Source: Ardenticatenales bacterium
Lineage (GTDB): Bacteria; Chloroflexota; Anaerolineae; Epilineales; Epilineaceae
Assembly: GCA_020853525.1 (NCBI GenBank)
Contig: JADYYS010000059.1
Location: 1 to 64,000, forward strand
DNA length: 64,000 nucleotides
Reading direction: 5' to 3'
The position numbers and the translations under genes are program-made. Shown here one piece after another: positions 3,742 to 27,409 of the stretch. Position 1 is the first letter of the stretch. Each line of letters starts with the position of its first letter. Below the pieces are notes generated by a model. The model made no database searches and was not told the DNA's origin. It worked only from the letters and a program-made list of their open reading frames with translations.

Positions 3742-3956
3742 GGCGGAAGCAGGTCACCTAGTTTCCAGGTCACCGAATGTGAACGGCAGCCTCCGGTGAA
3801 TTGGATCACGGCGACATTCCAGTCGGACGGTTCGCGCCGATGGGCGCCATCCAGTTGCCTCGCCACCCGGTTCGCACTACGCTCCCGCCTCGCGTCACCC
3901 GTCGCACGCCGTCGTGGCGCGCACGTCATCCGACACGACCTACGGAGGCAACGCAC

Positions 3957-4196
3957 ATGTGGTGGATCATCGCCGGCCCGATCGGCGGCTTTCTGGCCGG
4001 CTGGTTCCTCAAAGGCGACAAGAAGTTCGACCTCGTCGACGTCGTCATCGGCCTCCTCGGCGGCTTCTTCTGCGGCTGGCTCTTCACATGGGCCGTCGGC
4101 ACCGGCCTGTTCGGCCAGGTGATCAGCGCGTTCCTCGGCTCCATCGTCCTCGTGTGGCTGTACGAGAAGTTCTCGGGCAAGCGGATCAACATGTAA
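3957..4196 (+). CDS. GlsB/YeaQ/YmgE family (transglycosylase-associated) small membrane protein
   Basis: MWWIIAGPIGGFLAGWFLKGDKKFDLVDVVIGLLGGFFCGWLF...FLGSIVLVWLYEKFSGKRINM; Gly-rich TM pattern. Start moved to ATG at 3957, preceded by 'ggaggcaacgcac'. Confidence 0.75.
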   Translation: MWWIIAGPIGGFLAGWFLKGDKKFDLVDVVIGLLGGFFCGWLFTWAVGTGLFGQVISAFLGSIVLVWLYEKFSGKRINM

Positions 4197-4231
4197 AGGT
4201 CGTCCGGCCGCAACGGGCGTCGGTACGCGAA

Positions 4232-4261
4232 ACGGGCCGGTCCCTTTGGGGACCGGCCCGT
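4232..4261. terminator. Hairpin terminator between convergent genes
   Basis: 13-bp perfect stem acgggccggtccc / gggaccggcccgt with a 4-nt loop, in the gap between the convergent 3957-4196 (+) and 4281-18353 (-) genes. No strong U-tract. Confidence 0.6.
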
Positions 4262-4280
4262 GATTGTGTGACCTCTTCGC

Positions 4281-10200: not shown

Positions 10201-13200
10201 ATCTCGAGGCCGGCCGGGACGGCATCGGAGACGACGACGTTGGGGGCCGTGCTGCCGCCCGGCTCCCCGAAGGCCGGATTCTGGTTCGTGACGACGATCG
10301 TCCACGTCAGACGCTCGCCGGCGGTGACGGCGTTCGGCACGCTCGTGGTCGTTGCGCACACCGTCGGGCTGCGCACGTCACCGACCTCGCTCTTCGTGAG
10401 GCGCAAGTCCGAGGTGTCGAGCACGGAGATGCTGTCGACGGCGGCGTTGTTGCCGAGGCGCGGATCCGGTGTGCCGATGCGGCCGGTCACGCCGTCGCGG
10501 CTGTAGACGCGCGCCTCGTTGTTGATGTCCTGCGTCTGCGTGGCGCGCGCCGTCACCTGCACGCTCCAGCGGCCGGTACCGAAGCCGCTGCCCACCGGTT
10601 CGAGCGGGTCGACGAGCGTGCAGCGCAGGATCTGGCCCGAGAGCGGCGGCGGCGCCGGCACGACGGTGCACGCGTCGTTCCGGCCCGGATCGAGCAGCGT
10701 GCCGACGAGCGTGAACGCGCCCGACGAGAGGAGGGTGTCGTCGATCGCCAGGTCGCGAGCATGCGACGGACCGAGGTTCTCGACGAGCAGGGTGTACGTG
10801 AAGATCTCGCCGGCGCGCACGCCGTCGTCCGGCTTGCTGACCTTCCAGATCCGGGCGTCCGCCAGGTCGACGAGATGCGTCAGGTGGACCTCGGTGTCGT
10901 CGAGGATGTCCGTGTCGTCCTGGTCGGCCGTCACGCCGGCGCGGAGCGTCAGGACGAGCGGCTGCCCGGCGATCAGGCGGGTGTAGTACGCGTCCGGCTC
11001 GACCTCCGTCTGGACGGTGATCGTCTTGCTCCCGCCGGGCGGGATCGACCCGAACTGGCACGTCAGGAAGCCGACGGGCGCCTCGACGCACTGCGGGACG
11101 TTGTTGTCCGTCACGTAGTGGACGTCGACATCCAGCGTGAGCGTCAGGACGACGCCGGTGGCGATGCTCGAGCCGTCGTTGCGGACGGTGATGTCGTAGA
11201 AGAGCCCGTTGCCGGCGACGGCCGGGCCGGGGAGGAGCGGCGGGCGCGGGGTCTCGGCGTCCGGGTCGGCCGCATCGACGCTCTCGGAAGAAGCGTCGTC
11301 CCCGCCCTCGGCCCCGTCGTGGGCGTCACGCGCCAGCTCGAGGGCGGCGGCGGACTCGAGCGGGTCGGGATAGATGGGCGCCGGGCGCGAGACGATGAGG
11401 ATGTCCAGGTCGATGCTCGGGACGCCGAGGACGACGGCATCGCGGTTGTTGTCCAGGTTCTGATCGCCCGTCTCCGACGTGACGGTGGCGATGTTCGTCG
11501 CGGACTCGCTGGCGGCCGAACTGAACACGGCGTTGATCGTCAGGGTGCGCGAAGCGCCGTTCGCCAGGGCGCCGATCATCCAGATGCCCGAGACCGGGTC
11601 GTACGTCCCGCCTGATGCGGTGTGCGAGACGTACGTGAGGCCGATCGGGAGCCGGTCGCGCGCCGTGACGCCGACGGCATTCAGCGGCCCGTTGTTCGTC
11701 ACGACGATCGTGAACGTCACGGGGGTTCCGAACGCGTACGGGCCGGGCGTGACGGTCTTGTCGATCGAGAGGTCCGCGCCGCGGACCGTGACGGCCGCCG
11801 TGGCGGTGTCGTTGCTCTCATCCGGGTCGGGCAGGCTGCTCGCCGCGACGGTCGCGACGTTCGTGAGGATCTGGCCGCCCGTGCCGCTGAGGAGCTGGCC
11901 CCGCAGGAGCAGCGTCCGCATGGCGCCGTCCGGCAGGCTGCCGATGTTCCAGATGCCCGAGATCGGGTTGTACGTCGTGCCCGGCGGCGTCGTGGCGCTG
12001 ACGAAGGCCATGCCGCTCGGCACGCGGTCGCGGATCTGGACGCCCGTCGCGTCATCCTCGCCGTTGTTCGTGACGGTGATCGTGAACTCGACGGTCTGGC
12101 CCTCGTCGGCAATTGGAAGGTCGACGGACTTCGTGACCACCAGATCGGCGAACACGAGGAAGATCGGCACGGACGCCGTGTTGTTGCGCGTATCCGGGTC
12201 GCCGATCATCGGCGAGAGGTCGTCGACCGTCACGGTGTTCGTGACGATCGGGTTCGCCACCGCGACGCCCGGGTTCACGGTGGCGACGATGTCGAGCGTC
12301 GCCTCGGCGCCGATGCCGGTGACCTCGTCGAACGCCAGCGCGCCGACGTTCCAGTCGCCCGTCCCGGGCGTGTACGTGCCCTGGCTCGCCGTCGAGCTGA
12401 CGTACGTCAGCTGCGACGGCAGGACGTCCGTCGCGTGCACGTCGATCGCGTCCTTCGGCCCGTGGTTCGTGACCGTGACCGTGTAGACCACGGTGTCCCC
12501 TTCGTAGGGCGTGTTGTCGTCGACGGTCTTCTCGACCTCGAGATCGGCGCCCTGCACGGACACGGCGACCGTGCCGGTGTTGTTCGCCAGGTTCGGGTCG
12601 TTCGGATTGTTCGCGGGGTTGCTCGTGCCGGAGATCGTCGCCCGGTTCGCGATGAAGCCGCGGTAGCGGATGACGTTGTGGCTGCCGCAGCCGGCGACGA
12701 AGAGATCACCGTCCGGGCCCCAGACGAGGCCCGTGGGGTTGATCGGCGCCGGCTCGCCGGGCTCGGTGATGAGGAACTCGCCCAGGAAGTCGCCCGGCGA
12801 CATCGGCGACGCGACCTGCGGTCCCTGGTAGACGAGGACCTGGCCGCTACCGCTCGATACGACGTACAGGTTGCCGTCCGGTCCGAACGTGAGGTCGGCC
12901 GCCCCGGCGAGCGGGCCGCCGTGCGAGAAGACCTGGACGAACGCACCCGTGTCCGCGGCGTACTGGAAGATCCCGCTCGGCGTCGAGACGTAGAGGTCGC
13001 CGTCCGGCCCCCACGCGAGGCCGCGCGGCGCGATGAGGGACGGCGATCCGCCGAAGTCGACGAACGGCGGCGGGATCGGGAAGCCGCGCAGGAAGCCCGT
13101 GTCGAAGTAGCGGAGGATCTGGTTGCCGATGTTGCTCGAGACGTAGAGCAGCCCGTCGTCCGGTCCGAACGCCAGGCCCTCCGGACCCTGCAGGCCGCCG

Positions 13201-16200
13201 GAGCCGAAGAAGCCGGGGACGTACGGCGTGCCCTCGTAGGCGCCGGTCGTGCCGTTGTAGCGCAGGATCCGGTCGTTGTTGTAGCTGGCGACGTACAGCC
13301 GGCCGTCCGGACCGAAGACGAGGTCGCGCGGCCCGTCGAGCCCGCTCGTCTCGTCGACGAACGTGTCGATGAAGGCGCCGGTCGTGCCGTTGTAGCGCAG
13401 AACGCGGTCCGTGAACTCGCTCGACACGTAGAGGTTGCCGTCCGGGCCGAACGTGAGGTAGCGCGCGCAGTTCAGCCCGGGGACGGTCGCGCTGTAGCGG
13501 ACCTGGGCGAAGACGCCGGCAAACGCGGCGTGGCCGTCGAAGCGGACGATGCGGTTGTTGCCGCGGTCGGCCACAAGCGCGTCGCCGTCCGGAAGGAACA
13601 CGATGTCGCCGGGCGAGCTGAGGACGCCGCTGCCGAACGTGGGCAGCGCGGCGCCGGTCAGGAAGTTCCAGCGCTCGACGGCGCCGGGGTGGGTCGTGCC
13701 GTACAGGTTGCCGTCCAGGCCGTAGAGCACATCCTCGATGCCGCCGACCGGGTTGAAGCCGGCCGGGTCGCTGGCGACGCCGGCCGAATTCACGCGCAGG
13801 ATGTTGTTCGGGCCGCGGTTTGCGACATACAGGTTGCCGTCCGGCGCGTATGCCAGGCCGCGCGGGTTGTTGATCAATCCGCCGGAGCTGAATACGCCGA
13901 GGAAGGCGCCCGTCGCGCCGTCGAAGCGCAGGATGTCGTCCGGGAGGAAGAAGACGAAGTCGCGGGCGACGAAGACGTCGTCCGAGTCGCCGATGGCCAG
14001 GCCGAACGCGCCCGGTCCGTCCATCGGGACGGCGCTGACGAGCGAGCCAGGGCTCGTCGAGGTCGGCCCGTTCAGGACGATGATCGCTGAGTCGATTGTC
14101 GTGAACGTGCACGAGAGGTTGAGCGTCAGGAAGACGAGCTTGCCGTCCGCCGTGATCTCCATGTCGAATACGTTGTTGATGCTGCCGATGCCGATGCCGC
14201 ACGCCGCGCCGATGAGGTTGCCGTCGAAGAACGGCGTGGCCGACTCGGAGCCGGTGGTGGGGTTGTAGCGCCGGATGATCACCTCGTCGTCGTCCGACGG
14301 ATCGACGATGGCGGCGTAGAGCTGTTGGTCGAGGAAGCTCATCTTCAGCGCCCGGATGCCGTTGACGCCGGTGTTGTCGAACACGCCCTCGAACGTGCCG
14401 CTCACGATCCGTCCGAAGCCGAGGACCTGGTGCGAGTCCGTGCTGACCACGAGGAGGTTGCCTGAAACGGGATCGATCGCCAGCGCCTCGGGTCCGACCA
14501 GCCCGTTCTGGTTGCTGGCGATGATGGGCAGGCCCGGGCCGGGGAAGGCGAGGTCAAGCTGCAGGACCTGCGACAGTCCACGGTTCGCGACGTAGAGGTA
14601 GCGCTGGTCCGGCGACAGCACGAGGCCCGTCGGCCCGGAGAGGCCATCGGACGCGTCGAACAGCGCGCCGGTGCCGATCTGGGCGGAAGCGACGACGTCG
14701 AAGACGAGGATCTCGCTGCTGTTGCGGCTGGCGACGTACAGGTCGGCGATCGTGTCGCCGTTCCGATCCGGGCCGAACACGATCCCGTCGGCTCCGGCCA
14801 GCGTCGAGTTCGGGAACATGCCGAATACGCCCGGGTTCGGGTCGTCCTTGTGCGCAGCAACGACGCCGGTGAAGCCGCCGGCCGGGTTGTAGCGTCGGAT
14901 CTGGCTGTTCAGCGCGTTCGAGACGTAGAGGTTGCCGGCCCCGTCGAAGACGAGCCCGCGCGGCCCGGCGATCCCGTTCGGGAACGGGAAGAGCGGGTTC
15001 GGGCCGACGAACTCGCCGAGCGGGGCGCCCGTCGTCGCATCGAAGTGCAGGACCTGGTTCGTCTGGTTGCTGGCGACGTACAGGATCCCGGCGCGAAGCG
15101 CGAGCCCGACCGGCCCGCGGAGGCATCCGAGGCCGGGCACATCGCAATCCGCGTCCGGCTGGGCCTCCACGAAGACGTCGACGAACGCGCCGGTGGCGCT
15201 GTAGCGCAGAACCTGGTTCGAGTCGTAGCTCGAGACGAGCCAGTTGCCCGTCGCCGGGTCGCGAAGGATGGCGCTCGGGCGGCGCAGCCGGCCGAACGGC
15301 GGCGCCGGCGACGGGTCGCCGTCGGCGATGACGAACTCGCTATCGAACCGCCCGGGCGTGCGCGCCGTGTTCTGGTCGACCCGCACCGTGATCATCAGCG
15401 TTTCCATCTGGGCGATCGCGAGGTTGCCGACCGTCCAGATCCCGGTGACGTTGTTGTAGCTGCCCTGTGTGGCCGTGCTGCTGATGTAGATCAGGCCCGG
15501 CGGCAGCTGGTCGAGGACGGTCACGCCGGTGGCGGCGTAGCGACCGTCGTTCTGAACCTTGATCTCGAACGTGATGACCTCGTCCTCACACGGCATCGGG
15601 TTGTCGACGCGCTTGAAGACGACCCGCAGGTCGGCGCCGGCCGGCGGCGGCGCGATGAACTTCACCGAGAGGTCCTCATGGACGATCGGCGCGCCGATCC
15701 CGCCGCCGGGGTTGCAGCCGTAGGTCAGCCCGAGCGTGCCGTTCGGACCGTCCAGCCCGACCGTGGCCGAGCGCCCGCCGCTGCGGTCGCCGCCGGTGGG
15801 GATCTCGTTGACGAGCGTCGCGGCGGTCGTCATGACCTGGTTGTTGAACCGGCTGCCGATGTACAGCCGTCCGTCCGGGCCGAACGACAGCATGCGCGGC
15901 CCGTCGAGGCCGCCGCTGCCCGATGGCGCTAACGTGCCGATGAAGGCCCCGGTCGTGCCGTTGTAGGCGAGAACCCGATCGTTGGACTGGTTCGTGACGT
16001 ACAGGTTGTTGGCCAGACCCCCGAAGACGATGCCCGCCGGCTCATCCAAGCCGCCGCTGCCGGCGGCGACGAAGTTGCTCACGAACGCGCCGGTCGTCCC
16101 GTTGTAGCGCTTCACCTGGTCCGTCTGGAAGCTCGACACGTACAGGTCCCCGCCCTGGAACACGATCCCGATCGGGACGTCGAGTCCGCCGCTGCCGGCG

Positions 16201-18353
16201 GTGACGAAGTTGCCGATGTACGCACCGGTCGTCCCGTTGTAGCGCTTCACCTCGTCCGTGTTGATGCTGGCGACGAACAGGTCGCCGCCCGTCCCGAATC
16301 GCAGGCCGTGCGGGCCGTCCAGGCCGCCGTCCTCGTCGACGAGGAGCGTGCCCGGATCGTCCTCGACGAACTCGTCGATGAACGCGCCTGTCGTGCCGTT
16401 GTACTCGATGACCTCGTTGGAGAAGATGCTCGACACGAACAGGTTGCCGTTTGGACCGAACACGAGGTCCTGCGGCCCGTTCAGGCCGCCTGAGCCAGCG
16501 CTCACGAACACACCGACGAAGGCGCCGGTCGTGGCGCTGTAGCGGAGCACCTCGTTCGTGGAGCGGCTCGAGACGTACAGGAAGCCGCCGTTGAAGACGA
16601 TCCCTTCCGGGAACGACGGCAGGGTGGGCGATAGGAACGGCACGAGGTCGACGTCGAACTCGAGCACCCGGTTCGAGCCGTGGCTGACGACGTAGAGGTT
16701 GCCGGTGCTGTTGAAGCGGATGTAGCGAGGCTCGTTCAAGCCGTTCTGGCCGGACGCGACGGCGACGTTGAAGAAGCTGCCGTCGCCGCCCGCATAGCGC
16801 AGTACCCGGTCGTTGTTCTCGCTCGCGACGTACAGGTTCCCGTCGGCCGGGCCGAACGCGAGACCGCGCGGGCCGTCCAGACCGCCCGAGCCGCTCGCGA
16901 CGAACGTCCCGATCAACGCGCCGGTCGCGCCGTCGTACTTGATGACCGTGTCCGTGTTGTAGCTGCTGACGTAGAGGTGGCCGTCCGGCCCGAACACGAG
17001 ATCGTCCGGGCCGTCGAGCCCGCCGGAGCCCGCGGCGACGAACGTGCTCAGGAACGCGCCCGTCGCGCCGTTGTAGCGCAGGATCCGGTCGTTGTTGAAG
17101 CTGCTGACGTACACGTTGCTGTCCGGGCCGTAGCGCAGGCCGCGCGGACCGTCCAGCCCGCCGGATCCCGCGCCGATGAACGTCGCGAGGAAGAAGCCGT
17201 CGTTCAGCTGCGTGCCGGGGTGCGCGCCGTTGTAGAGGAGCACGCGGTCCGTCTCGAAGCTGCTGACGAAGACTTCGTCCACGCCGTCCGCCGTGGCATC
17301 GCCCGTTCCGCCCGCCACGCCGTCGCCGATCATCATGCCGGAGGGTCCGTCGAGGCCGGCCTCGCCGCTGCGGATGTGGACGCGCTCGAAGGAACCGGGC
17401 GTCGTGAACCGCGTCACCTTGTCGCCCGTCTCGCTGCTGACGAGGAGGCGGTTGTCCGGCGAGGGGTAGAGGGCGAGCGCGTCCGGCTGCCCGCTGTCGA
17501 CGTTCAAGTACTCGACGCGGATGTCGCTGCTGCGCTCCAGGATCTGGATCTGGAAGATGACCGTTTCGGCCGCTTCGTTGAAGTGGCTGACCTGCTCCCA
17601 CTGCGCCACGAACACCCGGTTCGGCGCCGTGCCGAAGGTGTAGGTCAGGATCCGGCCGTTCGTCGCCACGCGCCAGTCGTCCCACAGCCCGAAGATGCTG
17701 CCGCCGGCGGGTGAGGCGCCAGTCGGGGGGCACGCGTTCGAGAAACGGTTGTCGGGGCCGCCGAGGCTGATCTGGCCGTTGCCGCAGACAAAGACGCTCG
17801 TGTAGACCTGGTCGAAGTAGGTGAAGCTGAAGTCCGGCAGCACGCCGCCGTTCAGCGCGACCGAAACGCACTCGTCGTCCGAGATCGTGTTGAGCGGCAC
17901 GCCGATCGAGCGGATATCGCGGAAGTCCGAGACCGGCGCCTCGGGGTTCCCGATCTCATCGGAGTCCACGTAGCGGTAGTAGCCGTTGCCGGCCAGGCCG
18001 CCGCCGGTGGCCAGCGGCTGCATGCCCTTCGCGGCGTCGCCCGTCAGGACGGGATCGCTCTTCACGACGGGCGGCGGCAACTCGACGGTGAGCGGAGGAT
18101 CGGCCAGCGGGGCCGATGGCGAGGCGTCGAGGGGCGCGCCAGACGGCTGGCCAGACGGCGCGCCGGAGGGCGCACGGGATGGCGAACCGACGGACTCGGC
18201 CGCCGGCGCCGGTACGTCTGCCGTTCCGTTCGCCGCACGCGCCGCTCCGCCGGCGAACGCCAGCGCAACCGCGAGCGCGATGCCAAGCGCCTTGGCGATG
18301 CGAACGGGTCGGGCTTGGCTGTTCACCAGGCGGATAGTGATTCGCCTGCGCAT
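4281..18353 (-). CDS. Giant exported multidomain protein (about 4690 aa): NHL/SMP30-like beta-propeller repeats, many DUF11 (TIGR01451-type) repeats, C-terminal four-repeat module
   Basis: Single ORF; start at ATG 18353 (MRRRITIRLVNSQ...) with SD-like aaggagaa upstream. NHL-like units 'LVFGPDGHLYVSSYNTDTVIKYDGATGALIGTFVASGSGGLDGPRG'; DUF11 units 'ADLxVTKxVxxxxxxxGxxVxYTxxVxNxGPSDAxxVxVxDxLPxGxxxxS'. Confidence 0.85.
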   Translation of the reverse strand: MRRRITIRLVNSQARPVRIAKALGIALAVALAFAGGAARAANGTADVPAPAAESVGSPSRAPSGAPSGQPSGAPLDASPSAPLADPPLTVELPPPVVKSDPVLTGDAAKGMQPLATGGGLAGNGYYRYVDSDEIGNPEAPVSDFRDIRSIGVPLNTISDDECVSVALNGGVLPDFSFTYFDQVYTSVFVCGNGQISLGGPDNRFSNACPPTGASPAGGSIFGLWDDWRVATNGRILTYTFGTAPNRVFVAQWEQVSHFNEAAETVIFQIQILERSSDIRVEYLNVDSGQPDALALYPSPDNRLLVSSETGDKVTRFTTPGSFERVHIRSGEAGLDGPSGMMIGDGVAGGTGDATADGVDEVFVSSFETDRVLLYNGAHPGTQLNDGFFLATFIGAGSGGLDGPRGLRYGPDSNVYVSSFNNDRILRYNGATGAFLSTFVAAGSGGLDGPDDLVFGPDGHLYVSSYNTDTVIKYDGATGALIGTFVASGSGGLDGPRGLAFGPADGNLYVASENNDRVLRYAGGDGSFFNVAVASGQNGLNEPRYIRFNSTGNLYVVSHGSNRVLEFDVDLVPFLSPTLPSFPEGIVFNGGFLYVSSRSTNEVLRYSATTGAFVGVFVSAGSGGLNGPQDLVFGPNGNLFVSSIFSNEVIEYNGTTGAFIDEFVEDDPGTLLVDEDGGLDGPHGLRFGTGGDLFVASINTDEVKRYNGTTGAYIGNFVTAGSGGLDVPIGIVFQGGDLYVSSFQTDQVKRYNGTTGAFVSNFVAAGSGGLDEPAGIVFGGLANNLYVTNQSNDRVLAYNGTTGAFIGTLAPSGSGGLDGPRMLSFGPDGRLYIGSRFNNQVMTTAATLVNEIPTGGDRSGGRSATVGLDGPNGTLGLTYGCNPGGGIGAPIVHEDLSVKFIAPPPAGADLRVVFKRVDNPMPCEDEVITFEIKVQNDGRYAATGVTVLDQLPPGLIYISSTATQGSYNNVTGIWTVGNLAIAQMETLMITVRVDQNTARTPGRFDSEFVIADGDPSPAPPFGRLRRPSAILRDPATGNWLVSSYDSNQVLRYSATGAFVDVFVEAQPDADCDVPGLGCLRGPVGLALRAGILYVASNQTNQVLHFDATTGAPLGEFVGPNPLFPFPNGIAGPRGLVFDGAGNLYVSNALNSQIRRYNPAGGFTGVVAAHKDDPNPGVFGMFPNSTLAGADGIVFGPDRNGDTIADLYVASRNSSEILVFDVVASAQIGTGALFDASDGLSGPTGLVLSPDQRYLYVANRGLSQVLQLDLAFPGPGLPIIASNQNGLVGPEALAIDPVSGNLLVVSTDSHQVLGFGRIVSGTFEGVFDNTGVNGIRALKMSFLDQQLYAAIVDPSDDDEVIIRRYNPTTGSESATPFFDGNLIGAACGIGIGSINNVFDMEITADGKLVFLTLNLSCTFTTIDSAIIVLNGPTSTSPGSLVSAVPMDGPGAFGLAIGDSDDVFVARDFVFFLPDDILRFDGATGAFLGVFSSGGLINNPRGLAYAPDGNLYVANRGPNNILRVNSAGVASDPAGFNPVGGIEDVLYGLDGNLYGTTHPGAVERWNFLTGAALPTFGSGVLSSPGDIVFLPDGDALVADRGNNRIVRFDGHAAFAGVFAQVRYSATVPGLNCARYLTFGPDGNLYVSSEFTDRVLRYNGTTGAFIDTFVDETSGLDGPRDLVFGPDGRLYVASYNNDRILRYNGTTGAYEGTPYVPGFFGSGGLQGPEGLAFGPDDGLLYVSSNIGNQILRYFDTGFLRGFPIPPPFVDFGGSPSLIAPRGLAWGPDGDLYVSTPSGIFQYAADTGAFVQVFSHGGPLAGAADLTFGPDGNLYVVSSGSGQVLVYQGPQVASPMSPGDFLGEFLITEPGEPAPINPTGLVWGPDGDLFVAGCGSHNVIRYRGFIANRATISGTSNPANNPNDPNLANNTGTVAVSVQGADLEVEKTVDDNTPYEGDTVVYTVTVTNHGPKDAIDVHATDVLPSQLTYVSSTASQGTYTPGTGDWNVGALAFDEVTGIGAEATLDIVATVNPGVAVANPIVTNTVTVDDLSPMIGDPDTRNNTASVPIFLVFADLVVTKSVDLPIADEGQTVEFTITVTNNGEDDATGVQIRDRVPSGMAFVSATTPPGTTYNPISGIWNIGSLPDGAMRTLLLRGQLLSGTGGQILTNVATVAASSLPDPDESNDTATAAVTVRGADLSIDKTVTPGPYAFGTPVTFTIVVTNNGPLNAVGVTARDRLPIGLTYVSHTASGGTYDPVSGIWMIGALANGASRTLTINAVFSSAASESATNIATVTSETGDQNLDNNRDAVVLGVPSIDLDILIVSRPAPIYPDPLESAAALELARDAHDGAEGGDDASSESVDAADPDAETPRPPLLPGPAVAGNGLFYDITVRNDGSSIATGVVLTLTLDVDVHYVTDNNVPQCVEAPVGFLTCQFGSIPPGGSKTITVQTEVEPDAYYTRLIAGQPLVLTLRAGVTADQDDTDILDDTEVHLTHLVDLADARIWKVSKPDDGVRAGEIFTYTLLVENLGPSHARDLAIDDTLLSSGAFTLVGTLLDPGRNDACTVVPAPPPLSGQILRCTLVDPLEPVGSGFGTGRWSVQVTARATQTQDINNEARVYSRDGVTGRIGTPDPRLGNNAAVDSISVLDTSDLRLTKSEVGDVRSPTVCATTTSVPNAVTAGERLTWTIVVTNQNPAFGEPGGSTAPNVVVSDAVPAGLEIVSIAGVGPGGSAAGCHAGTPGNPADPARCVFASLAAGTSGTVTIVARVDAGYVGLSGTNVIANSAWTASDNIDPFQDDNFVTQITAVTEVADLSIVKLATPSPVIAGRELSYELVIANAGPSNARSVIVRDRLPSSLRFVSARIENQSGRELCTYAEGAHEVICSLFEVPVGEPPVGGRRVFINTVVLPSIPAGPLANTATVASDVTPDCNPANNSSLVSVPVQTQADVAVTKVVDPVKIAAGRQVKYTVFVTNNGPSDAQNVVVTDTLPPEVIYEIDTLQPMCVITNAPAVPQVLSCAIGLLPSGQTRSFDIWALVRPNIPSGTTITNNVSVTSVTSLGDPVTANNTAFAKNYVESFVDLTISKFGTNEGRVRAGQILTYTVIVDNHGPSFGEGVALKDVLQAAEQFDLIDITSDRPATCRSLTAAGATETNVLAGTPWPPALPPVPPFGVLEPSGIPLIGQRLQVDCTLTQVLTPAFGIPQLGVLLADGPPNTGRWIVTMRVRFRQAQDIRNVADVVSTSNEIDPATNHAEVLHEITDVANLSVTKTALGEVQANGQAGRILNTQAPLPVLPEAPFYSGSATQVTAGRRIRYTVRVQNGGPSDAENVIVTDRLPAGVTVLPNTVRVNVDNLPQLPATACQTGTSGSPVDQLTCGIGTLLGVDSALRRGATIVFDVLVDPSVAPGSILENDVEVRSDVFDPTTANNHAHVQTAVLSSADLSTSKTATGQNVTGYDVPNARFTIADQANRVTAGLILRYELSVQNAGPSLSRNVTLRDILPAGVTYLHTDAGVDCRPDEVNGGTLYCTVGDMLPGERRTFSLFVLVDRAVANNTVLQNCVDALFAPASPPAAPGPLPPPPPTLTLTGDPLATNNQACNNTTVNAVADIGGPGDGGPFGDANGFLQKVDVPAEPRLDRSIEPDLAIAGNEHRYRITFGNAGPSTAVSVVLTDTLDFKQPGLTGERFLRCEPLDPDDVAVCAYNAVTNVVTLVQLKAHNETIFSGGVGTLTPGVGYGFDLVTIVDAGYVLDAANVQSAGPLNSEAGVIARNTAFLTTSTTDFRRQNNRDTERTRIIAEADLAITKTDIFGDFLTCDPVTPGGMVTYQIVATNNGPSDAAEVFVVDQLPIDALAVDPAQVDVTVSAGEIVEVRDDGRITIRVGNGVNNAGVPQLGRLNTRESVTIQLMAMVRQAAKCGSVFANTVGIETRRNDAVWPLVNTGPAQGPNGTPPTAPRTPTIDRNGANNRAVESTTVACPSIEIDKTVSFDGICPGADLPVINEAGQPVTFCFEITNTGTTYLDDIRITDTLRSRSTMPTIIFTDTIRFGVDPKVPVAPGETVRRQVTVPHLTRECGNAVDVVEVSANPVNSGRTDLSCLPIVTDTDSVRIEVPCVGVDFRLQLPILGGETCETWIQVQNVGDRDTIPVLVVWGEAGFCPPQAAGPLKVECSGLLRPGSAWSFANSQIPPGANSAVVYSLSAAIVEEQPGQPVAFGRLVCERIYESVVGSDLNWLIFDIAYRKRGTYDGYDFSKFAGEPLAVVVNRGCPDPVDPNRTNHAAYEGVSSDLEGAYDPVSGGFTSYAPYIVSGNAGLNTILHIQNSGELCTSLEIWFKDQDNCLRPILGDVIQLSRGETVDFDPATVVGAGWIGSAWIRASQPLGVVVDTMGPNHFTSYVGIPADIDALEFTLGDQVNYAPLIYNEYMGWDTAIQVQNLSATVAAKVKVYFLDFGGGIKQTLVDWICPRGSQSYFLPVIAGLPGNWTGTARAESQEWWTPGAHIVDPPRIQSVVILERFSDPARSERREAVAYNAATETIYDWQLGNGKGGVASGSAVFALPMVAKRNRGVSTEIGIANLVPKPGFTDFAIFLYDQNGLIDFVCEKLGEKQVEYINIDSWGWVRPSFLGSIVVSATFWEHDVFDAQGRFVRNLVGLGAVGIERIGAVLGDPDIPGDESKAYQSFPLFDHFLLEAPPNCGP

Positions 18354-18404
18354 GGGCGGTTCTCCTTGGGGCGTGCGGCGGTCTCGGACGAGCCCAACCG
18401 GCAC

Positions 18405-21400
18405 CTAGCGCGCACCGAGCGGCTGGAACACCGGCACACCCGGGCAGTTCGGAGCCGTTTCCGGCTCGAAGTGATCGAAGATCGGGAAGGCCTCGAACGC
18501 CTTGCTCTCGTCGCCCGGCACATCGTTCCCACCGAGGACGCCGCCGATTCGCTCCACGCTCACGGCACCCAGTCCGACGAGGTTGCGGACGAATCGGCCC
18601 TGGCCGTCGAAGACGTCGTGCTCCCAGAAGACGGCGCTGACGACCATCGAGCCCATGTACCGCGGGGGGATCCAGCCGATCGTGTTCAGGTCGAGGTACT
18701 CCACCTGCTTCTCGGTCAGCTTCTCGCAGAAGTGGTCGATTCGGCCGTTCTGGTCATAGAGGTAGATGACGAAGTCGGTGAAGCCGGGCTTCGGCACGAG
18801 GTTCGTGATCGCGATCTCACTCGTGACGCCATTGTAGCCCTTGGCGACGAGCGGGATGGCGAACACGGCTGAGCCGCTGGCCGTTCCGCCCTTGCCGCTG
18901 CCGAGCTGCCAGTCGTAGCTGTAGCACTCCGTCTGGGCGTTGTAGGCAATCGCCTCGCGCCGCGCGGTGCGCGCCGGGTCGGCCCACTTCTCGAGCAGGA
19001 CCACGGACAGCACCTTGGGTGGTTCGACGTTCGGGCCGCCGGGCGTGATCCACTCCTGGCTCTCGACGCGGGCCGAGCCGACCCACGCGCCCGGCAGTCC
19101 GCCGATCACGGGCAGGAAGAACGTCTGGCTGCCGCGCGGGCAGATCCAGTCGACGAGCGTCGTGATGATCCCGCCGGCACGATCCAGGAAGTAGACCTTG
19201 ACCTTGGCCGCCGTCGTGCCGGAGAGGTTCTGGACCTGGATCGCGGAGTCCCAGCCCTGGTACTCGCTGTACGTCAGAGGGGCGTAGTTGATCTGGTTGC
19301 CGAAGCTGAAGTCCAGCTCGAACACGTCGGCCGGGTAGCCGTTGTAGCTCGTGAAGTGGTTGGCGCCGTTCGTGTCGACGACGACCCCGAGCGGAACGGT
19401 CGAGCGGATCCAGGCGCTGCCGAGCCAGTCCGGTCCGACCACGGTGTTCGGGTCGAACGACACCGTCTCGCCGGGCGAGAGCGTGAGGACGTCACCGAGC
19501 ATCGGGCGCATGCAGTTGTCCTGGCCGTAGAACCAGATCTCCAGGCTCGAGCAGAGCGCGCCCGAGTTCTGCATGTGGATCATGGAGCTCAGGCCGCCCT
19601 TGTTGGCGAAGACGAGCGGTGCATAGAAGCCGTGGCCGCCGCTCCGCGGGTCGGCCGCGCCTTCGAGGTCACTCGAGATGCCGATGTAGGCGGCGCTGAC
19701 CTTCTGGTTGGGGTCCGTCACATCCGGGCATGTGCGGTTGACGACGACGGCCACCGGCTCGCTCAGGTACTTGCCGAAGTCGTACGTTCGCCACAGGCCG
19801 CGCATCCGGTATGCGGCGTCGAATCGGACCCACTCCAGGTCGCGGCCGACGACGTACAGGTTGATGTCCTCGCACACCAGCGCCCCGAACGGCACCTTCG
19901 TCCCCGGCTGGACCTCGACGGTCTCGGCGCTCATCGCGTAGACGACCGCGCTGCGGCTGCCCGTCGGCACCTGGCCGGCAGCGAACCGCCACGCGGAGCC
20001 CGGCCGGAGCAGGCCGCCGCACTCCGCCTTCAGCGGACCGGCCGCCTGCGGCGGGCAGAAGCCCGGGTCGCCCCACACGACCATGAGCGGCACGATGCTG
20101 CGGTCACCGACATTCTGTACGGTAACCCAGGTCTCGCACTCGCCGCTGTGGAGCACCGGCAGCTGGAGTCGGAAGTCGACGCCGGCGCACGGGACCTCGA
20201 TCGTGGCGATGTCCGAATCCGTCACGTTCGGCAAGCACGTGAGGTCCGTGCGGCCCGAGTTCACGGGATTGGCCGTGACGGTGACGATGTCCTCGACGAT
20301 CCCGCACTCGCAGTCGAGGCTCTGATAGGTCACCTGCCGCAGGACGGTCTCGCCCGGCGCCACCGGCACCTTCGGGTCGACCCCGAACTTGATCGTGTCC
20401 GTGAAGATCACGGTGGGCATCGTCGTGCGCGTGCGCAACGTGTCCTCGACGAAAATGTCGTCAAGGTACGTCGTGCCCGTGTTCTTGATCTCGAAGCAGA
20501 ACGTGACCGGTTGGCCGGTGCGGTTGATCTGCGGCACGTCGCGTCCCGGGCACTTGCCGTCGAACGAGACCGTCTTGTTGATCTCGATCGCCGGGCACTC
20601 GATCTTCGTGTCCTCGAAGTCGAGGTTGTTGTTGGCGTCCGGGTCGAAAGTGGGCGTACGCGGCTCCGTCGGGCTGACGGGCGGCACGCCCTGCGGCGGC
20701 CCGGTGACGATCGGCGGCCACCGAACGTCGTTGCGGCGGGTCTCGACCGTGACGAGGTTGACAGCGAAGCCGCCGCAAGCAGCCGTCTGCCGGACCATCG
20801 CCTGGATCGTGATGATCACTTCCTGGCCGGCGTTCAACCGGCCGAGCTCGGGCACGCCGGCATTGTTCACGCCGTTGCCGACCTGGAGCGTGATCCGCCC
20901 GTCGTCGCGCACCTCGACGATGCTGCCCGCCGAGATCGTCACGTCCACCTGTGCCGGGTCGACCGCCACGAACGCCTCGGGCAGCCGATCGACGGCGAAG
21001 ACTTCCGCCGCGTCGGACGGACCGTCGTTGCGGACGCGGATCGTCCACGTGATCATGCCGCCGCGCGTGACGGGGTCGCACTGCAGGAAGTCGTCGCCGA
21101 AGAGGTCCGTCTTCGTGACGGAGAGATCGGCCTCGGCGATGATCCGGGTGCGCTCGGTGTCGCGGTTGTTGCCCAGGCGGAAGTCCGTCGTCGTCGAACG
21201 GATGAAGACGGTGTTGCGGGCGATCGCGCCGGGCTCGGAGTTCAACAGGTTGGCTGCGAGGGTGTTGGAGGCGTCGAGGATGTAGCCGGGATCGACGAGC
21301 GTGATCAGGTCGAAGCCGTACGTGATGCCGGGCGCCAGCGTGCCGAGGCCGCCGCTGAAGATGACCTCGTTGTGCGCCCGCAGATTGGCCAGCGTCACGA

Positions 21401-24400
21401 CGTTGGTCACCGCGTTGTAGGTGCAGATCACGGCGTCGTCCGGATCGAGCGGCTCGCACCGCACGAAGCGCTCGCCCGGCAAGCCGGGCTGCTTGAAGTC
21501 CAGCGTGTCCGTCAGGACGACGCTGACGGCCGTCGACGGCCCGGCGTTGCCGAACCGGATCCGGTAGCGGTGCTCGAGGCCGGCGACGGCGAGGTCCGGC
21601 TCGAGCGGCATGTCCAGGCGCGGCTCGGCCGGCACGTCCTTCTTCTCGATGAACGACAGCGCGCCCGACGTCGCCGGACCCGCATCCGGGCCCCCGACGT
21701 CCGCCACGGCGCGAACCGTCGTGTTGTTGCAAGCCTGGTTGTTCGGGCTGAACGGATCGTCCGTCAGCGGCAGCGTCGGCGCCGGCGGCGGCAGCGCGGG
21801 CGGCTGGGCCGGCGGCGTGGCGCCGAGGGACAGCGACGTGACGCAGTTCTGAATGACGGTGTTGTTCGCCACGGCCTGGTCGACGGTGACGTAGATGTCG
21901 AACGTACGCCGCGCCCCGACCGGCAGGTCGCCGACGGTGCAGTAGAGCGTCGTGCCGCCGACCTCGGTCGGCCGGCAGCTGGCGCCGACGACGCGCAGCA
22001 GGCGCACGCCCGCCGGCAGCACGTCGGACAGCGTGACGTTCGACGAATCGCTCGGTCCGTTGTTCTGCACGGCGATCTCGTAGCGCAGCACGAGGCCGGC
22101 GGTCACGGAGTTGGCCTGGTCCTGCAGGTTGAAGCGCTGGTTGGCGACGTCGTAGCCGACGACGTTCTGCCCCATCGCCGTCTTGCTCGTGGACAGGTCG
22201 GCGTCGGTGTCGACGACGGTCTCGACGTGGGTGTGGTTGTTCTGGTTGAACGGGTCGAAGACGTCCGAGCTGACGAACGCGTCGTTCTCGAGGACGGACC
22301 CTGCGGCGAGCGACGGGTCGACGAGCACGTCGTACTGGATCGTCGCGCCGCGGCGGACGGCGAAGTCGACGCCGAGCAGCGTGCCGAGGCCGCATACGAG
22401 GCGGTCGGCCGGATCGCCCGGCGTGCCGGTCTCGCACGTGCCGGCCGGCATGGTCGGTTGGTTGTCGACCGTGACGATGACCGAACCGGGCAGGATCGTC
22501 ACGCCCGGCGGAAGGCGGTCCGTCACGATGACGTTCTCCGCGTCCGACGGCCCGCCGTTCTGGATACGGAGCGTGTAGCGGATCCGGCGGCCGGCGGTGG
22601 CCAACGTCGCGGACGTGGTGTAGTTCGGCGCCTGCGGGAAGGCCGGCGCGGCGGCGGTGGTGTTGTAGATCAGGCCCGCCTGACCGGTCACCTGCACCTC
22701 GCCCACCGCCGTCTTGACGATCGACAGGTTGGCGACGTCCGTGATCTCGTGCAGGACCTCGGCATGGTTGTTGTCCGGCTGCGGCTCCTCGGCCGTGGCG
22801 GACAGAACGTCGGCGACATTGCGGATGTCCTGCGCCTGCCGGAAGCGCACGCGCATCGTCAGGATCCAGCGACCGCTGTTCGGCGGTCCGTCGGCGCGGA
22901 GCACCGCCAGCTGCGCCTCGTTGCGCGTCGTGAGGGGGTTGTCGCCTTGCGTCAACGTGCAGTCGACCTGCAGGCGCTGGTTGATCAGCGGGATGCCCGT
23001 CGGCTCGAGGACGCCGAAGAACGGCACCGGCGGGAGCGACGGCGGCCACGGGGTGCCCGCGATGTTGTTCGTTTCGGTGCCGACGGCCGTCAGGCTGCGA
23101 CACGTCGTGGCACGGTCGGACGTGATGTCGATCAGGTCGAACTGCTCACCGCTCTGCAGCACGTCCTTCAGCGACACCGTCTCGGCGAAGCTCGGCCCGA
23201 GGTTGTCGACGATGACGGTGTACGTCAGGATCTGCCCGGCGCGCACCTGACCGTCGTTGTTGCCGAACTTCGTGACCTTGAGATCGCTCTTCGTGAGGAC
23301 GAGGTTCTTGCGGGCCGAGACGTTGTTGCGGCCGAGCGTGTAGACGTCGCTGTTCGTGACGCCCGCGATCGGGTTCAGGTCACGGTCCGGCTCGGTCGGG
23401 CTCGTGACGATCGCGACGTTCGTGATCGTCGTCCCCGAGTAGATCTCGGGCCGGACGAGCGTCCAGATGTCGAACGTCCGAACGCCGCCGCCGCTGTCGG
23501 CCGCATCGCGCGGCGGATTGCTGCCGCGCGGCTCGAGCGTGCCGAGCGGACAGAGGAGCGGCGACGTGCGGGTGAGGGCGACCTGCCCGCGCATTTCCCC
23601 GCCCGGGAAGTCCGTCGAGTGCACGTTCACGTAGAAGCCGGCCGGGTTGGCGATGAGGGCCGCGGCCTGCGCCGCAGACAGGAAGAGCTCGCCGACGACC
23701 GGGTTCGTCGTGCTGAACGGCGGCGGCGGCGGCTGGTTGAACAGGTTGATGACGACCGGGCCGTTGACGCCCGCTCCGCCCGCATGGATATGGGCGTCCA
23801 GCAGGTTGTCGACGTCGTTCACCTGCAGGCTGTACACCAGGCGGTTCGTCGTCGTGTCGAGGACGAACGTCGCGAGCCCGTTGGCGAGCGATGCGTTCGG
23901 CGGCACCTCGTTCGCACCGGCCAGGACGGCGCGGTAGCCGAGCAGGTTGGCCGGCCGTGTGCACATCGGCGCGTTCGTGTCGATCTCGTAGTTCACCTCG
24001 TCGGGCAGGACGTCGTAGACCTCGACGTTCTGGGCATACGACGGGCCGAGGTTCGTGACGGTGATCGTGTACTTCTTCTGCTCGCCGGCGAAGACCTTGA
24101 CCGGGGAGCTCGTCTTCAGGATCTCGAGGTCGGCGATCGCCACGACGGACGTCGTGATCGTGACGGAGTTGTTCGCGACGTTGCAGTCGGGCGTCTGCGT
24201 CGTCGTCGCGGTGGCGGTGTTGCCGATCGCGCCGGGTGCGGTGTCGGGGCGGACGCGCGTGTTGATGAAGACGCGGCGCTGGCCGATGCCGGTTGTCGGC
24301 TCGGAGGGCGGGATGTCGAAGCCCGAGCAGATGACCTCGTGCGCGCCGGTGCTGTACGTGCAGTTCTCGCGTCCCTGCACGTTCTCGATGCGGGCCGAGT

Positions 24401-26783
24401 GGAACACGACACCGGCCGGCAGTCGGTCGCGGATGATCACCTCGCGGGCCGTCGAGGGCCCGCTGTTCTGGACGACGAGCTCGTAGGTCAGCGACTCGCC
24501 GGCGTTCACCGGGTTGGGCGACGCCGACTTCGTGATCGAGACATCGGCGACCTCGCCGACGGTCGTGACCTGGTTCACCCAGTTGTTCTGCAGGCTTGGA
24601 TCGAGGTTGTCCGAGAACGCCTGCGCGCTGTTCTGGAGCAGGTTCGTGCCCGAGACGCCGACGTAGTCGTCGTCGACGCGCACGACGATCGTCATCGACG
24701 CCGTCTGCGCGACGGCCAGCGAGCCGTACGTACAGCGCGTCGGATCGCCCGGATTGCCAGGCGTGCCGGCATGGCATCCGGCCGCGCCGCTCGGCCCGAC
24801 GCCGGTGACGCTGACCAACTCGAGGCCGTGCGGCAGGAAGTCCTCGATGACGACGTTGGTGGCGGTGCTGCCCCCCGGAGCGCCGAAGGCCGGCGCGAGG
24901 TTGGTGACGACGAGGTTGTAGGTCAGATTCATTCCGGCCGTGACCTGGCCGGGCGTCGGCGTCGTCAGCGCGCAGTTCACGGCACTCCGCACTTGGCCGG
25001 TCGAGGTCTTCGTCAGCGCCAGGTCGGAGGTGTCCAGAACCGAGATGTTGTCGACCGCATAGTTGTTGGACAGATCCGGATCCGGCGTGCCGGGCGTCCG
25101 CCCGGTGACGGCATCCACGGTGTAGACGTGAACCTCGTTGTTCACGTCCGTCGCCTCGACGGCGCGCGCCTCGATCTGGACGGTCCAGCGCCCGGTGGCG
25201 GGCGCGATGCCGCTGCCGACGGGCTCGAGCGACTCGCCGAGGATGCAGCGGACGATGCGGCCCGTCTGCGGCGGCGGCGCGGCCGCCTGGGTGCAGCTGT
25301 CGGCGCGCGTCGGGTCGAGGATGATGTTCACGAGCGAGACGTTGCTGTTGAACAGCACGGTGTCGTCGAAGCGCACCTCGCGGGCCGTGGAGGGGCCGAG
25401 GTTCTCGATCAGGACGGTGTACGTGAAGATCTCGCCGGCGCGGATGGAATCGTCCGGCTTGCTCACCTTCCAGACGCGCAGGTCGGCCAGGTCGTCCAGG
25501 AACGCCACCTGGCTGAAGACATTGTTCGACGGGTCGGCGTCCACCTGGAAGCTGGACACGGCGACGTGGTTCGTCATCCGCTCGAACCCGTTGGCGACCG
25601 CCTCCGGGTCGACGTCGACCTGGATCGTGAACACCTTCGTCTCGCCACCGTCCAACGTGCCGAGCTCGCACTCGACGATGCCGCTGCCCGGCGCGGTCTC
25701 GGCGCACGCCGGATCGACGACCGGGCCGCCCATCCCGTCGTCCGTCGGCGGGGCGTTGGACGAGATGAAGTTGACCTGCGGCGGCAGCGTGTCGATGACC
25801 TCGACGTCCGTCGCGCGGCCGCTGCCCAGGTTCGTGACCGTGATCTCGTAGAACAGCGGCTCGCCGGCGATGGCGGGGTCCGGGAACGAGGTCTTCGTGA
25901 CCATGAGGTCGACCTCGGGCTCGATCCGCAGGTCGTCGATGAGCAGGCCGGTGTCAATGCGGAAGTCGTCCTCGCCCTGGTCGCTGACCAGGAACCGCAG
26001 CTCGTGGCTGCCGGAGGTCGTGATCAGGTGCTGGAACGTGTCGAAGCCGCTCTGGCCCCATTCGAAGCTGCAGCCGCTGTTGCCCTGCAGGATCCGGACA
26101 CCGTCGACCGGGATGTCCTGGAGCGGCGAAGGCCCGCCGCCGGGCACGCTGCCCGAGAGGATCGGCACGCCGTCGAGCGTGACGATGAAGAAGTCGTCGA
26201 ACGGGTCGGGGCTCGTCGTGCCGTCCGACTCGGCCGTGAGGAAGTTCCAGTCGAAGCTCAGCGTCGCCGGCACCTGCGTCGGCGAGAGGGTGAAGGTCTG
26301 GTGCATGATCGCGCGGTCGTTGTCGCTGTTGTCGTCCGGGTCGCCGTCGAGGTCGCCGAGGTTGACGTTGCCTCGCTCGCCCGGCCCGGAGCAGAGGAAC
26401 GCCATGCGCGCGCCGTCCGGCGTGACGATGTCCCGACCGTCGTTCACCGGCTCACGCATGAACTGCGCGTCCGAGAGCGTCGTCACGGTGCCGAGGCCGT
26501 CGTCGATGTCCCAGCCGGCGAGCATGTCCTCGAAGCTATCGACGTACGGCAACACGCCGCCGACGTCCAGGTCCGCCAGCGGCTTCATCGGCTTCGCGGC
26601 CGCGATCGGCGCGTCGGACGACGGGCCGGCGGAGACCGGCGACTGCGCCGACGTCGCGCCGCCCGAGAGGACGAGCGCCACGCCGCACACCGCGCCGAGC
26701 CCCAGCATCCGCCAGCCGGTCCGACGGCGATAGGGCTTGGTGGATCGTGCCTGCGCGCTCGGGATGAGACCGGTGGGGCGCAT
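18405..26783 (-). CDS. Giant exported DUF11-repeat protein (about 2792 aa) with an inserted CHRD domain; paralogue of 4281-18353
   Basis: Start at ATG 26783 (MRPTGLIPSAQARSTKPYRRRTGWRMLGLGAVCGVALVLSGG) with SD 'aaggagaag'. Collinear with the downstream giant gene from 'DLADxRxWKVSKPDD' to the C-terminus. Confidence 0.85.
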   Translation of the reverse strand: MRPTGLIPSAQARSTKPYRRRTGWRMLGLGAVCGVALVLSGGATSAQSPVSAGPSSDAPIAAAKPMKPLADLDVGGVLPYVDSFEDMLAGWDIDDGLGTVTTLSDAQFMREPVNDGRDIVTPDGARMAFLCSGPGERGNVNLGDLDGDPDDNSDNDRAIMHQTFTLSPTQVPATLSFDWNFLTAESDGTTSPDPFDDFFIVTLDGVPILSGSVPGGGPSPLQDIPVDGVRILQGNSGCSFEWGQSGFDTFQHLITTSGSHELRFLVSDQGEDDFRIDTGLLIDDLRIEPEVDLMVTKTSFPDPAIAGEPLFYEITVTNLGSGRATDVEVIDTLPPQVNFISSNAPPTDDGMGGPVVDPACAETAPGSGIVECELGTLDGGETKVFTIQVDVDPEAVANGFERMTNHVAVSSFQVDADPSNNVFSQVAFLDDLADLRVWKVSKPDDSIRAGEIFTYTVLIENLGPSTAREVRFDDTVLFNSNVSLVNIILDPTRADSCTQAAAPPPQTGRIVRCILGESLEPVGSGIAPATGRWTVQIEARAVEATDVNNEVHVYTVDAVTGRTPGTPDPDLSNNYAVDNISVLDTSDLALTKTSTGQVRSAVNCALTTPTPGQVTAGMNLTYNLVVTNLAPAFGAPGGSTATNVVIEDFLPHGLELVSVTGVGPSGAAGCHAGTPGNPGDPTRCTYGSLAVAQTASMTIVVRVDDDYVGVSGTNLLQNSAQAFSDNLDPSLQNNWVNQVTTVGEVADVSITKSASPNPVNAGESLTYELVVQNSGPSTAREVIIRDRLPAGVVFHSARIENVQGRENCTYSTGAHEVICSGFDIPPSEPTTGIGQRRVFINTRVRPDTAPGAIGNTATATTTQTPDCNVANNSVTITTSVVAIADLEILKTSSPVKVFAGEQKKYTITVTNLGPSYAQNVEVYDVLPDEVNYEIDTNAPMCTRPANLLGYRAVLAGANEVPPNASLANGLATFVLDTTTNRLVYSLQVNDVDNLLDAHIHAGGAGVNGPVVINLFNQPPPPPFSTTNPVVGELFLSAAQAAALIANPAGFYVNVHSTDFPGGEMRGQVALTRTSPLLCPLGTLEPRGSNPPRDAADSGGGVRTFDIWTLVRPEIYSGTTITNVAIVTSPTEPDRDLNPIAGVTNSDVYTLGRNNVSARKNLVLTKSDLKVTKFGNNDGQVRAGQILTYTVIVDNLGPSFAETVSLKDVLQSGEQFDLIDITSDRATTCRSLTAVGTETNNIAGTPWPPSLPPVPFFGVLEPTGIPLINQRLQVDCTLTQGDNPLTTRNEAQLAVLRADGPPNSGRWILTMRVRFRQAQDIRNVADVLSATAEEPQPDNNHAEVLHEITDVANLSIVKTAVGEVQVTGQAGLIYNTTAAAPAFPQAPNYTTSATLATAGRRIRYTLRIQNGGPSDAENVIVTDRLPPGVTILPGSVIVTVDNQPTMPAGTCETGTPGDPADRLVCGLGTLLGVDFAVRRGATIQYDVLVDPSLAAGSVLENDAFVSSDVFDPFNQNNHTHVETVVDTDADLSTSKTAMGQNVVGYDVANQRFNLQDQANSVTAGLVLRYEIAVQNNGPSDSSNVTLSDVLPAGVRLLRVVGASCRPTEVGGTTLYCTVGDLPVGARRTFDIYVTVDQAVANNTVIQNCVTSLSLGATPPAQPPALPPPAPTLPLTDDPFSPNNQACNNTTVRAVADVGGPDAGPATSGALSFIEKKDVPAEPRLDMPLEPDLAVAGLEHRYRIRFGNAGPSTAVSVVLTDTLDFKQPGLPGERFVRCEPLDPDDAVICTYNAVTNVVTLANLRAHNEVIFSGGLGTLAPGITYGFDLITLVDPGYILDASNTLAANLLNSEPGAIARNTVFIRSTTTDFRLGNNRDTERTRIIAEADLSVTKTDLFGDDFLQCDPVTRGGMITWTIRVRNDGPSDAAEVFAVDRLPEAFVAVDPAQVDVTISAGSIVEVRDDGRITLQVGNGVNNAGVPELGRLNAGQEVIITIQAMVRQTAACGGFAVNLVTVETRRNDVRWPPIVTGPPQGVPPVSPTEPRTPTFDPDANNNLDFEDTKIECPAIEINKTVSFDGKCPGRDVPQINRTGQPVTFCFEIKNTGTTYLDDIFVEDTLRTRTTMPTVIFTDTIKFGVDPKVPVAPGETVLRQVTYQSLDCECGIVEDIVTVTANPVNSGRTDLTCLPNVTDSDIATIEVPCAGVDFRLQLPVLHSGECETWVTVQNVGDRSIVPLMVVWGDPGFCPPQAAGPLKAECGGLLRPGSAWRFAAGQVPTGSRSAVVYAMSAETVEVQPGTKVPFGALVCEDINLYVVGRDLEWVRFDAAYRMRGLWRTYDFGKYLSEPVAVVVNRTCPDVTDPNQKVSAAYIGISSDLEGAADPRSGGHGFYAPLVFANKGGLSSMIHMQNSGALCSSLEIWFYGQDNCMRPMLGDVLTLSPGETVSFDPNTVVGPDWLGSAWIRSTVPLGVVVDTNGANHFTSYNGYPADVFELDFSFGNQINYAPLTYSEYQGWDSAIQVQNLSGTTAAKVKVYFLDRAGGIITTLVDWICPRGSQTFFLPVIGGLPGAWVGSARVESQEWITPGGPNVEPPKVLSVVLLEKWADPARTARREAIAYNAQTECYSYDWQLGSGKGGTASGSAVFAIPLVAKGYNGVTSEIAITNLVPKPGFTDFVIYLYDQNGRIDHFCEKLTEKQVEYLDLNTIGWIPPRYMGSMVVSAVFWEHDVFDGQGRFVRNLVGLGAVSVERIGGVLGGNDVPGDESKAFEAFPIFDHFEPETAPNCPGVPVFQPLGAR
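23568..23943 (-). other. CHRD-domain coding segment inside the 2792-aa protein (approximate limits)
   Basis: YRAVLAGANEVPPNASLANGLATFVLDTTTNRLVYSLQVNDVDNLLDAHIHAGGAGVNGPVVINLF...FYVNVHSTDFPGGEMRGQVALTR: canonical CHRD pattern (LxGxxEVPP, AHIHxGxxGxxGPVVxxL, YxNVHTxxxPxGExRGQ). Confidence 0.8.
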
Positions 26784-27270: not shown

Positions 27271-27409
27271 TTCCGCCGGCGGCCCGCGTTACATCTGTAC
27301 GCGACGGGTGACCGCCGCGCGTCGTGTGGTGCGCCTCGGCGCGTCGTGCGCGTCGTCCACATGGACAGTCTGTTTCGCGATCCGCCGCGGGTCGCCAGGA
27401 GGTGTTGCC

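Follow-up and report, generated by a model that had tools for sequence, protein, structure and literature searches.

A CHRD domain nested in the cysteine hairpin of a DUF11 repeat in a putative surface stalk protein of Chloroflexota

Tandem genes for two giant DUF11 proteins

The window, that is, the whole stretch of 64,000 nucleotides of Chloroflexota DNA analyzed here, contains two giant minus-strand ORFs that are tandem paralogues; we call them copy 2 and, downstream of it, copy 1. Over roughly the 1684 C-terminal residues of copy 2, the two proteins are 68% identical. The genes and their C-terminal modules are as follows.

18405..26783, minus: copy 2 gene, encoding 2792 aa when read from its probable start; the open frame reaches 27362
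4281..18353, minus: copy 1 gene, with an NHL region and without CHRD; ORF 4281-18404
18438..20195, minus: copy 2 C-terminal module (about 586 aa), specific to the order and assigned to no known family
4290..6038, minus: C-terminal module of copy 1
56118-57872, minus: a further C-terminal module in the window

A good ribosome-binding site precedes a more internal start in both genes, and the true starts are probably these, at 26783 for copy 2 and 18353 for copy 1, each after AAGGAGAA. Copy 2 consists of a signal-like N-terminus, DUF11 repeats, a nested CHRD domain, and the C-terminal module. Pfam identified many DUF11 repeats in both copies, NHL repeats in copy 1 only, and one CHRD domain in copy 2 only, which is also the single CHRD of the 4.27-Mb genome. 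When the copy 2 protein was compared with the features of fibrillar adhesins, stalk repeats were present according to Pfam; no known adhesive domain and no known anchor domain were found with Pfam or NCBIfam. Because of the signal-like N-terminus and the behavior of DUF11 proteins elsewhere, copy 2 is probably a secreted, stalk-type protein displayed at the cell surface.

The C-terminal module (about 570-586 residues) closes some eleven long proteins of the genome and had no match in Pfam or NCBIfam. Every one of the order's seven genomes contained it (3-22 matches per genome); 53 genomes from elsewhere in the class had none. It may have an order-specific role in surface sorting or anchoring. 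In the related genome G001, an 11555-residue open frame (G001:C209, minus) with many DUF11 repeats also ends in this module. Beside the tandem pair, and divergent from it, lie two adjoining ORFs (27308-28852 and 28877-30202, both plus) that have no Pfam match and look like paralogues by eye; they are followed by a gene whose product combines FG-GAP repeats with a long tail rich in Thr, Pro, and Ser (30304-32592, plus).

A complete CHRD domain splits one DUF11 repeat

The original prediction held that a complete CHRD domain lies within one DUF11 repeat of copy 2, that both halves of this repeat are kept, and that the equivalent repeat of copy 1 has no such insert. The two peptide strings quoted in its favor were both found in the sequence where it had placed them. 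Residues of the nested repeat (283 in total) are numbered from 24134.

23286..24134, minus: host DUF11/CLIPPER repeat including its CHRD insert, 283 residues
23961..24134, minus: first half of the host, residues 1-58, with Lys7, Asp41, and Cys58; AlphaFold2 strands 3-10, 13-15, 19-28, 34-42, and 47-52
24114..24116, minus: Lys7, predicted isopeptide donor, in strand 1 (3-10)
24012..24014, minus: Asp41, predicted catalytic Asp, in strand 34-42
23961..23963, minus: Cys58, left edge of the insert
23568..23945, minus: CHRD domain (Pfam match 23580-23936), with His115, His117, and His172
23550..23552, minus: Cys195, right edge of the insert
23286..23558, minus: second half of the host, residues 193-283, with Cys195 and Asn239; AlphaFold2 strands 193-200, 218-227, 236-244, and 272-280
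23418..23420, minus: Asn239, predicted isopeptide partner, in the penultimate strand (236-244)
9126..9521, minus: equivalent copy 1 repeat without CHRD, nine predicted strands

The CHRD profile (PF07452) was matched over its whole length (1-117 of 117) by residues 1143-1261 of the copy 2 ORF (window 23936-23580, minus), with an E-value of 1.2e-30 and a score of 107 bits against a curated cut-off of 24.1. To describe the host repeat, we used a DUF11 profile of 127 positions built locally from 75 repeats of the copy 1/copy 2 protein family. The match to this profile was broken by the CHRD, with positions 1-62 stopping just before it and positions 65-112 restarting just after it, and when the flanks were joined without the CHRD, they scored as one DUF11 domain of the PF01345 type (E-value 8.7e-31, positions 1-112 of 127). 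The same splitting and rejoining of the profile was also seen in related proteins. The two cysteines of the host loop are 136 residues apart in the nested repeat, compared with 11-13 residues in comparable repeats of copies 1 and 2. The insertion point that had been proposed is correct and corresponds to this Cys-Cys hairpin loop. Taken from profile matches and residue spacing, the nesting is no chance pattern. Pfam placed no CHRD in the equivalent copy 1 repeat (9126-9521).

Predicted structure of the nested repeat and its putative bond-forming residues

We next consider the structures predicted with and without the insert. In the AlphaFold2 model of the nested repeat (pLDDT 85.9, pTM 0.85), a putative CHRD barrel is set into an intact nine-strand sandwich, the order being five host strands, eight CHRD strands plus one helix (residues 64-184), and four host strands. 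The model of the copy 1 repeat has nine strands (pLDDT 96.5), and its hairpin occupies the corresponding position. Confidence in the nested model was low at residues 252-263 (<50) and about 70 in the linker at residues 201-217, and the prediction of the second half of the host is based on seven sequences. The alignment given to the structure job comprised nested repeats, CHRDs, and first halves only, because the second halves were misplaced when whole DUF11 repeats, or their second halves, were aligned together with the nested one. The domain search, the joined-flank test, and the structure prediction thus agree on a complete CHRD within one repeat whose two halves are preserved.

Foldseek matched both the nested and the copy 1 models to the CLIPPER crystal structure 9ifr at a probability of 1.00; for the nested model, the alignment spanned 278 columns over a target of 123 residues. 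From the AlphaFold2 strands and this match, the host is predicted to have a nine-strand CnaA-like fold. A PDB sequence search with the copy 1 repeat returned nothing, and 9ifr was reached by the fold search only. For the CHRD, the sequence profile matched the human chordin CHRD domains in the PDB (E-value 7e-20); chordin was not among the 50 Foldseek matches listed for the nested model.

CLIPPER is the new name of DUF11, and a Lys-Asn isopeptide bond with a neighboring catalytic Asp has been demonstrated in one member; such a bond connects strand 1 to the penultimate strand in CnaA-like domains (PMC12617251). The corresponding residues of the host, Lys7, Asp41, and Asn239, do not vary among the four Chloroflexota hosts and copy 1, nor do these positions vary across 40 ordinary DUF11 repeats. 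In addition, the NCBIfam model RrgB_K2N_iso_D2 scored above its cut-off in the copy 2 protein. Lys7 and Asn239 flank the CHRD on either side. Among the Acidobacteriota hosts described below, two (L067 and L179) keep Lys, Asp, and Asn, and the third (L066) lacks all three, a joint loss that is expected if the three residues act as one unit. Both hairpin cysteines are kept in every nested host. From these residues and the topology, rather than from model coordinates, we infer that an isopeptide and a disulfide form in the host.

The same nesting in related Chloroflexota and in Acidobacteriota

A search of related genomes for the same insertion, as had been suggested, was positive. Three further proteins, from two genera of the window's order, and three Acidobacteriota genomes show the same nesting at the same site. 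G001 (MAG OFTM155), of another genus in the same family, encodes two nested proteins (C108 and C62), and G003 (MAG Baikal-deep-G121), of another family in the same order, encodes one. Across genera, the nested CHRDs of Chloroflexota share 45-62% identity. A scan across bacterial and archaeal genomes identified two Acidobacteriota MAGs with the nesting (L066 and L067), and a search within the Acidobacteriota class added a third case (L179, genome G842), with 3 of 148 genomes having the nesting. Full-length nested matches among the 396 genomes sampled from the window's own class were confined to this order, and among the CHRDs retrieved from that class, DUF11 adjoined only those of this order.

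Of the seven nested CHRDs, six, drawn from both phyla, formed one clade in the CHRD tree (98/83), and the seventh, from G003, was not resolved with the other six. Because other bacteria, including members of a second phylum, have this nesting at the identical position, the nested pair appears to be an old, reused module in at least two phyla and not a one-off insertion of copy 2. When two of the Acidobacteriota nested proteins were compared, their C-termini differed, so the unit common to both phyla looks like a composite repeat rather than a whole gene. The rarity of the nesting suggests that this composite repeat has been transferred between phyla.

The nested CHRDs of L067 (6364-7116, plus) and L179 (1501-2253, plus) lack an HxH motif and a third His that are widely conserved in bacterial CHRDs, and we read them as decayed or repurposed inserts. 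In a further G001 protein (L024:7527-7910, plus; G001:C205, ORF 3558-10229), a CHRD occupies another loop of another repeat, after profile position 107. It clustered in the CHRD tree with CHRDs from tandem arrays, apart from the nested ones, indicating that the protein family acquired CHRDs at least twice, independently.

A different kind of insert was observed in G001:C62 (L023:1447-2520, minus), where an extra low-complexity segment of roughly 80-90 residues lies just past the second cysteine of the host. Copy 2 has a short insert, PRGSNPPRDAADSGG, at this site.

Loss of the CHRD from copy 1 or gain in copy 2

The original prediction treated copy 1 as the state before insertion, and this is probably wrong: the apparent orthologue of copy 1 and outgroup proteins have a CHRD, and we set copy 1 aside as the ancestral state. 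The G001:C108 protein (ORF 3445-18084) resembles copy 1 in three ways: it has the NHL N-terminus, it groups with copy 1 in the C-terminal tree (99/98), and its gene is the downstream member of a tandem pair. The upstream member of that pair groups with copy 2 in this tree (100/99), and the order of the two genes is the same in both genomes. The G001:C108 protein therefore appears to be the orthologue of copy 1, and since it has a CHRD, copy 1 most likely lost its own. We regard this loss, rather than a gain by copy 2, as fairly probable.

The opposite course, in which copy 2 and its CHRD-bearing relatives gained the domain after copy 1 had split off, with a separate gain in G003 and with copy 1 as the pre-insertion form, is consistent with several observations. 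Copy 1 falls outside copy 2 and the two G001 hosts in the host-repeat tree, and a topology in which all CHRD hosts form one clade without copy 1 was not rejected by the AU test (p = 0.32), so this tree alone is not decisive. The G003 CHRD stands apart from any resolved grouping with the other six, and the family did take up a CHRD a second time, at the other loop. However, the NHL architecture, the tandem order, and the C-terminal tree all make copy 1 the orthologue of a CHRD-bearing G001 protein, and the insertion site is exactly the same in all hosts, the other phylum included. Gain in copy 2 is accordingly an unlikely account, and loss from copy 1 is preferred. Also speaking against a loss, copies 1 and 2 pair with one another (100/100) in the segment that follows the host, perhaps as a result of gene conversion. 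The copy 1 linker VITNAPAVPQV was also considered as a scar of a lost CHRD and was rejected, since other repeats in both copies have 11-13 residues between their cysteines.

What the nested CHRD may do

The two His of an HxH motif and a distant third His are kept in 38/38, 37/38, and 37/38 of the bacterial CHRDs, respectively, and all four nested CHRDs of Chloroflexota have the complete set. As a lead only, these residues may be likened to the copper ligands of Cu-only superoxide dismutases (SODs). DR_0644 from the Deinococcus envelope has been described as a Cu-only SOD with His74, His76, and His182 as ligands, its copper being predicted and not seen (PMC9823218). It is tempting to regard the nested CHRD as a copper-binding, SOD-like head clearing superoxide at the cell surface, given the near-universal histidines, the SOD fold of the chordin CHRDs (PMC13382577), and a weak match between the CHRD profile and the DR_0644 structure (8aca), in which His182 falls on the third CHRD His. 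Nevertheless, we consider this role doubtful. That profile match was not significant (E-value 1.4) and left HxH unaligned, and a sequence relation between CHRD and 8aca was set aside for this reason; moreover, copper in DR_0644 is itself a prediction, the histidines are lost in two nested Acidobacteriota CHRDs, and the chordin CHRDs, which are SOD-like barrels that bind glycosaminoglycans, hold no metal (PMC13382577).

That glycosaminoglycan binding is the sole measured CHRD function we found in the literature, and it suggests a tentative alternative, namely that the nested CHRD is an adhesive, polysaccharide-binding head similar to the chordin CHRDs on sulfated glycosaminoglycans. DUF11 stalks bear adhesive domains and CnaA folds accept adhesive inserts (PMC12617251), which fits such a head, but the chordin site relies on Arg/His surface residues of its own and bacterial CHRDs are without any known ligand, so that this role, while possible, is somewhat unlikely. 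The CHRD might also be a tolerated passenger with no function of its own, in a hairpin that merely accepts insertions. Copy 1 manages without a CHRD, L023 carries its low-complexity insert beside one, the domain has decayed in two Acidobacteriota, and another loop has received a second CHRD, all of which would agree with a passenger. The Chloroflexota nested CHRDs nevertheless keep fully conserved motif residues at 45-62% overall identity, and this conservation across genera speaks for selection on the nested domain and makes a mere passenger improbable.

A proposed arrangement of the stalk and its inserted domain

Taken together, we propose that copy 2 is probably a surface stalk in which a DUF11 repeat, closed behind the insert by an isopeptide, carries the CHRD as a side lobe and displayed head, and that this composite is an old module. 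A CHRD barrel in the Cys-Cys hairpin would project from the stalk and leave the stalk itself continuous. The isopeptide between Lys in strand 1 and Asn in the penultimate strand, if formed, would close the host covalently behind the CHRD, and a disulfide between the two cysteines, if formed, would be a second clamp at the base of the CHRD. Judging from the topology, a pulling force along the stalk would pass through the isopeptide and bypass the CHRD, which may act as a functional head for binding a ligand or a metal part-way along the fiber.

In a stronger version of this proposal, the CHRD would be a copper-binding, SOD-like domain within an isopeptide-closed, load-bearing fiber, with the force bypassing it, and the composite would have moved between phyla as a unit. 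This version is quite unlikely; if true, it would put a head with metal-binding or catalytic activity midway along a fiber, spared from the pulling force. The natural pairs with and without the insert, the decayed inserts, and the one joint loss of the isopeptide residues would let experiments tell the part played by the bond from that played by the CHRD, and the conserved HxH and third His make a copper test of bacterial CHRD function simple.

Comparison with known systems

The CLIPPER structure 9ifr (DUF11, PF01345; PMC12617251) and the host share nine strands, a Lys in strand 1, a catalytic Asp, and an Asn in the penultimate strand. The difference lies in the Cys-Cys hairpin, which is about 123 residues longer in the host and is predicted to fold as the CHRD barrel. 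The human chordin CHRDs (9RD6, 9QVV, and 9IGM; PMC13382577), which have an SOD-like Greek-key barrel, are homologous to the nested CHRD (the profile match noted above); unlike the copy 2 domain, they stand four in a row, are not nested, and lack the HxH...H set. DR_0644 (8aca; PMC9823218), a beta-sandwich envelope protein, shares with CHRD an HxH and a distant His, but it is a stand-alone trimeric subunit, and its likeness to CHRD is not significant. GhlA of Litorilinea aerophila (Chloroflexota), a grappling-hook protein with 49 DUF11 domains, is, as proposed for copy 2, a giant surface protein built as a string of DUF11 beads, and its description does not mention CHRD (PMC13319060).

A literature search found DUF11 and CHRD together in no paper. 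A parallel is offered by the CnaA and CnaB domains of Gram-positive pilins and adhesins, in which, as proposed for the host, a functional domain is located in a loop of an isopeptide-bonded stalk domain; there, the inserts are vWFA, CnaB, or thioester domains, whereas here the insert is a CHRD, in Chloroflexota and Acidobacteriota (PMC12617251). Domain insertion in a CnaA-like fold is thus already known (PMC12617251), and a CHRD inside DUF11 is, by this literature search, a new form of it. CHRD thereby joins the short list of domains inserted in CnaA-like isopeptide domains, and the arrangement is now extended to Chloroflexota and Acidobacteriota.
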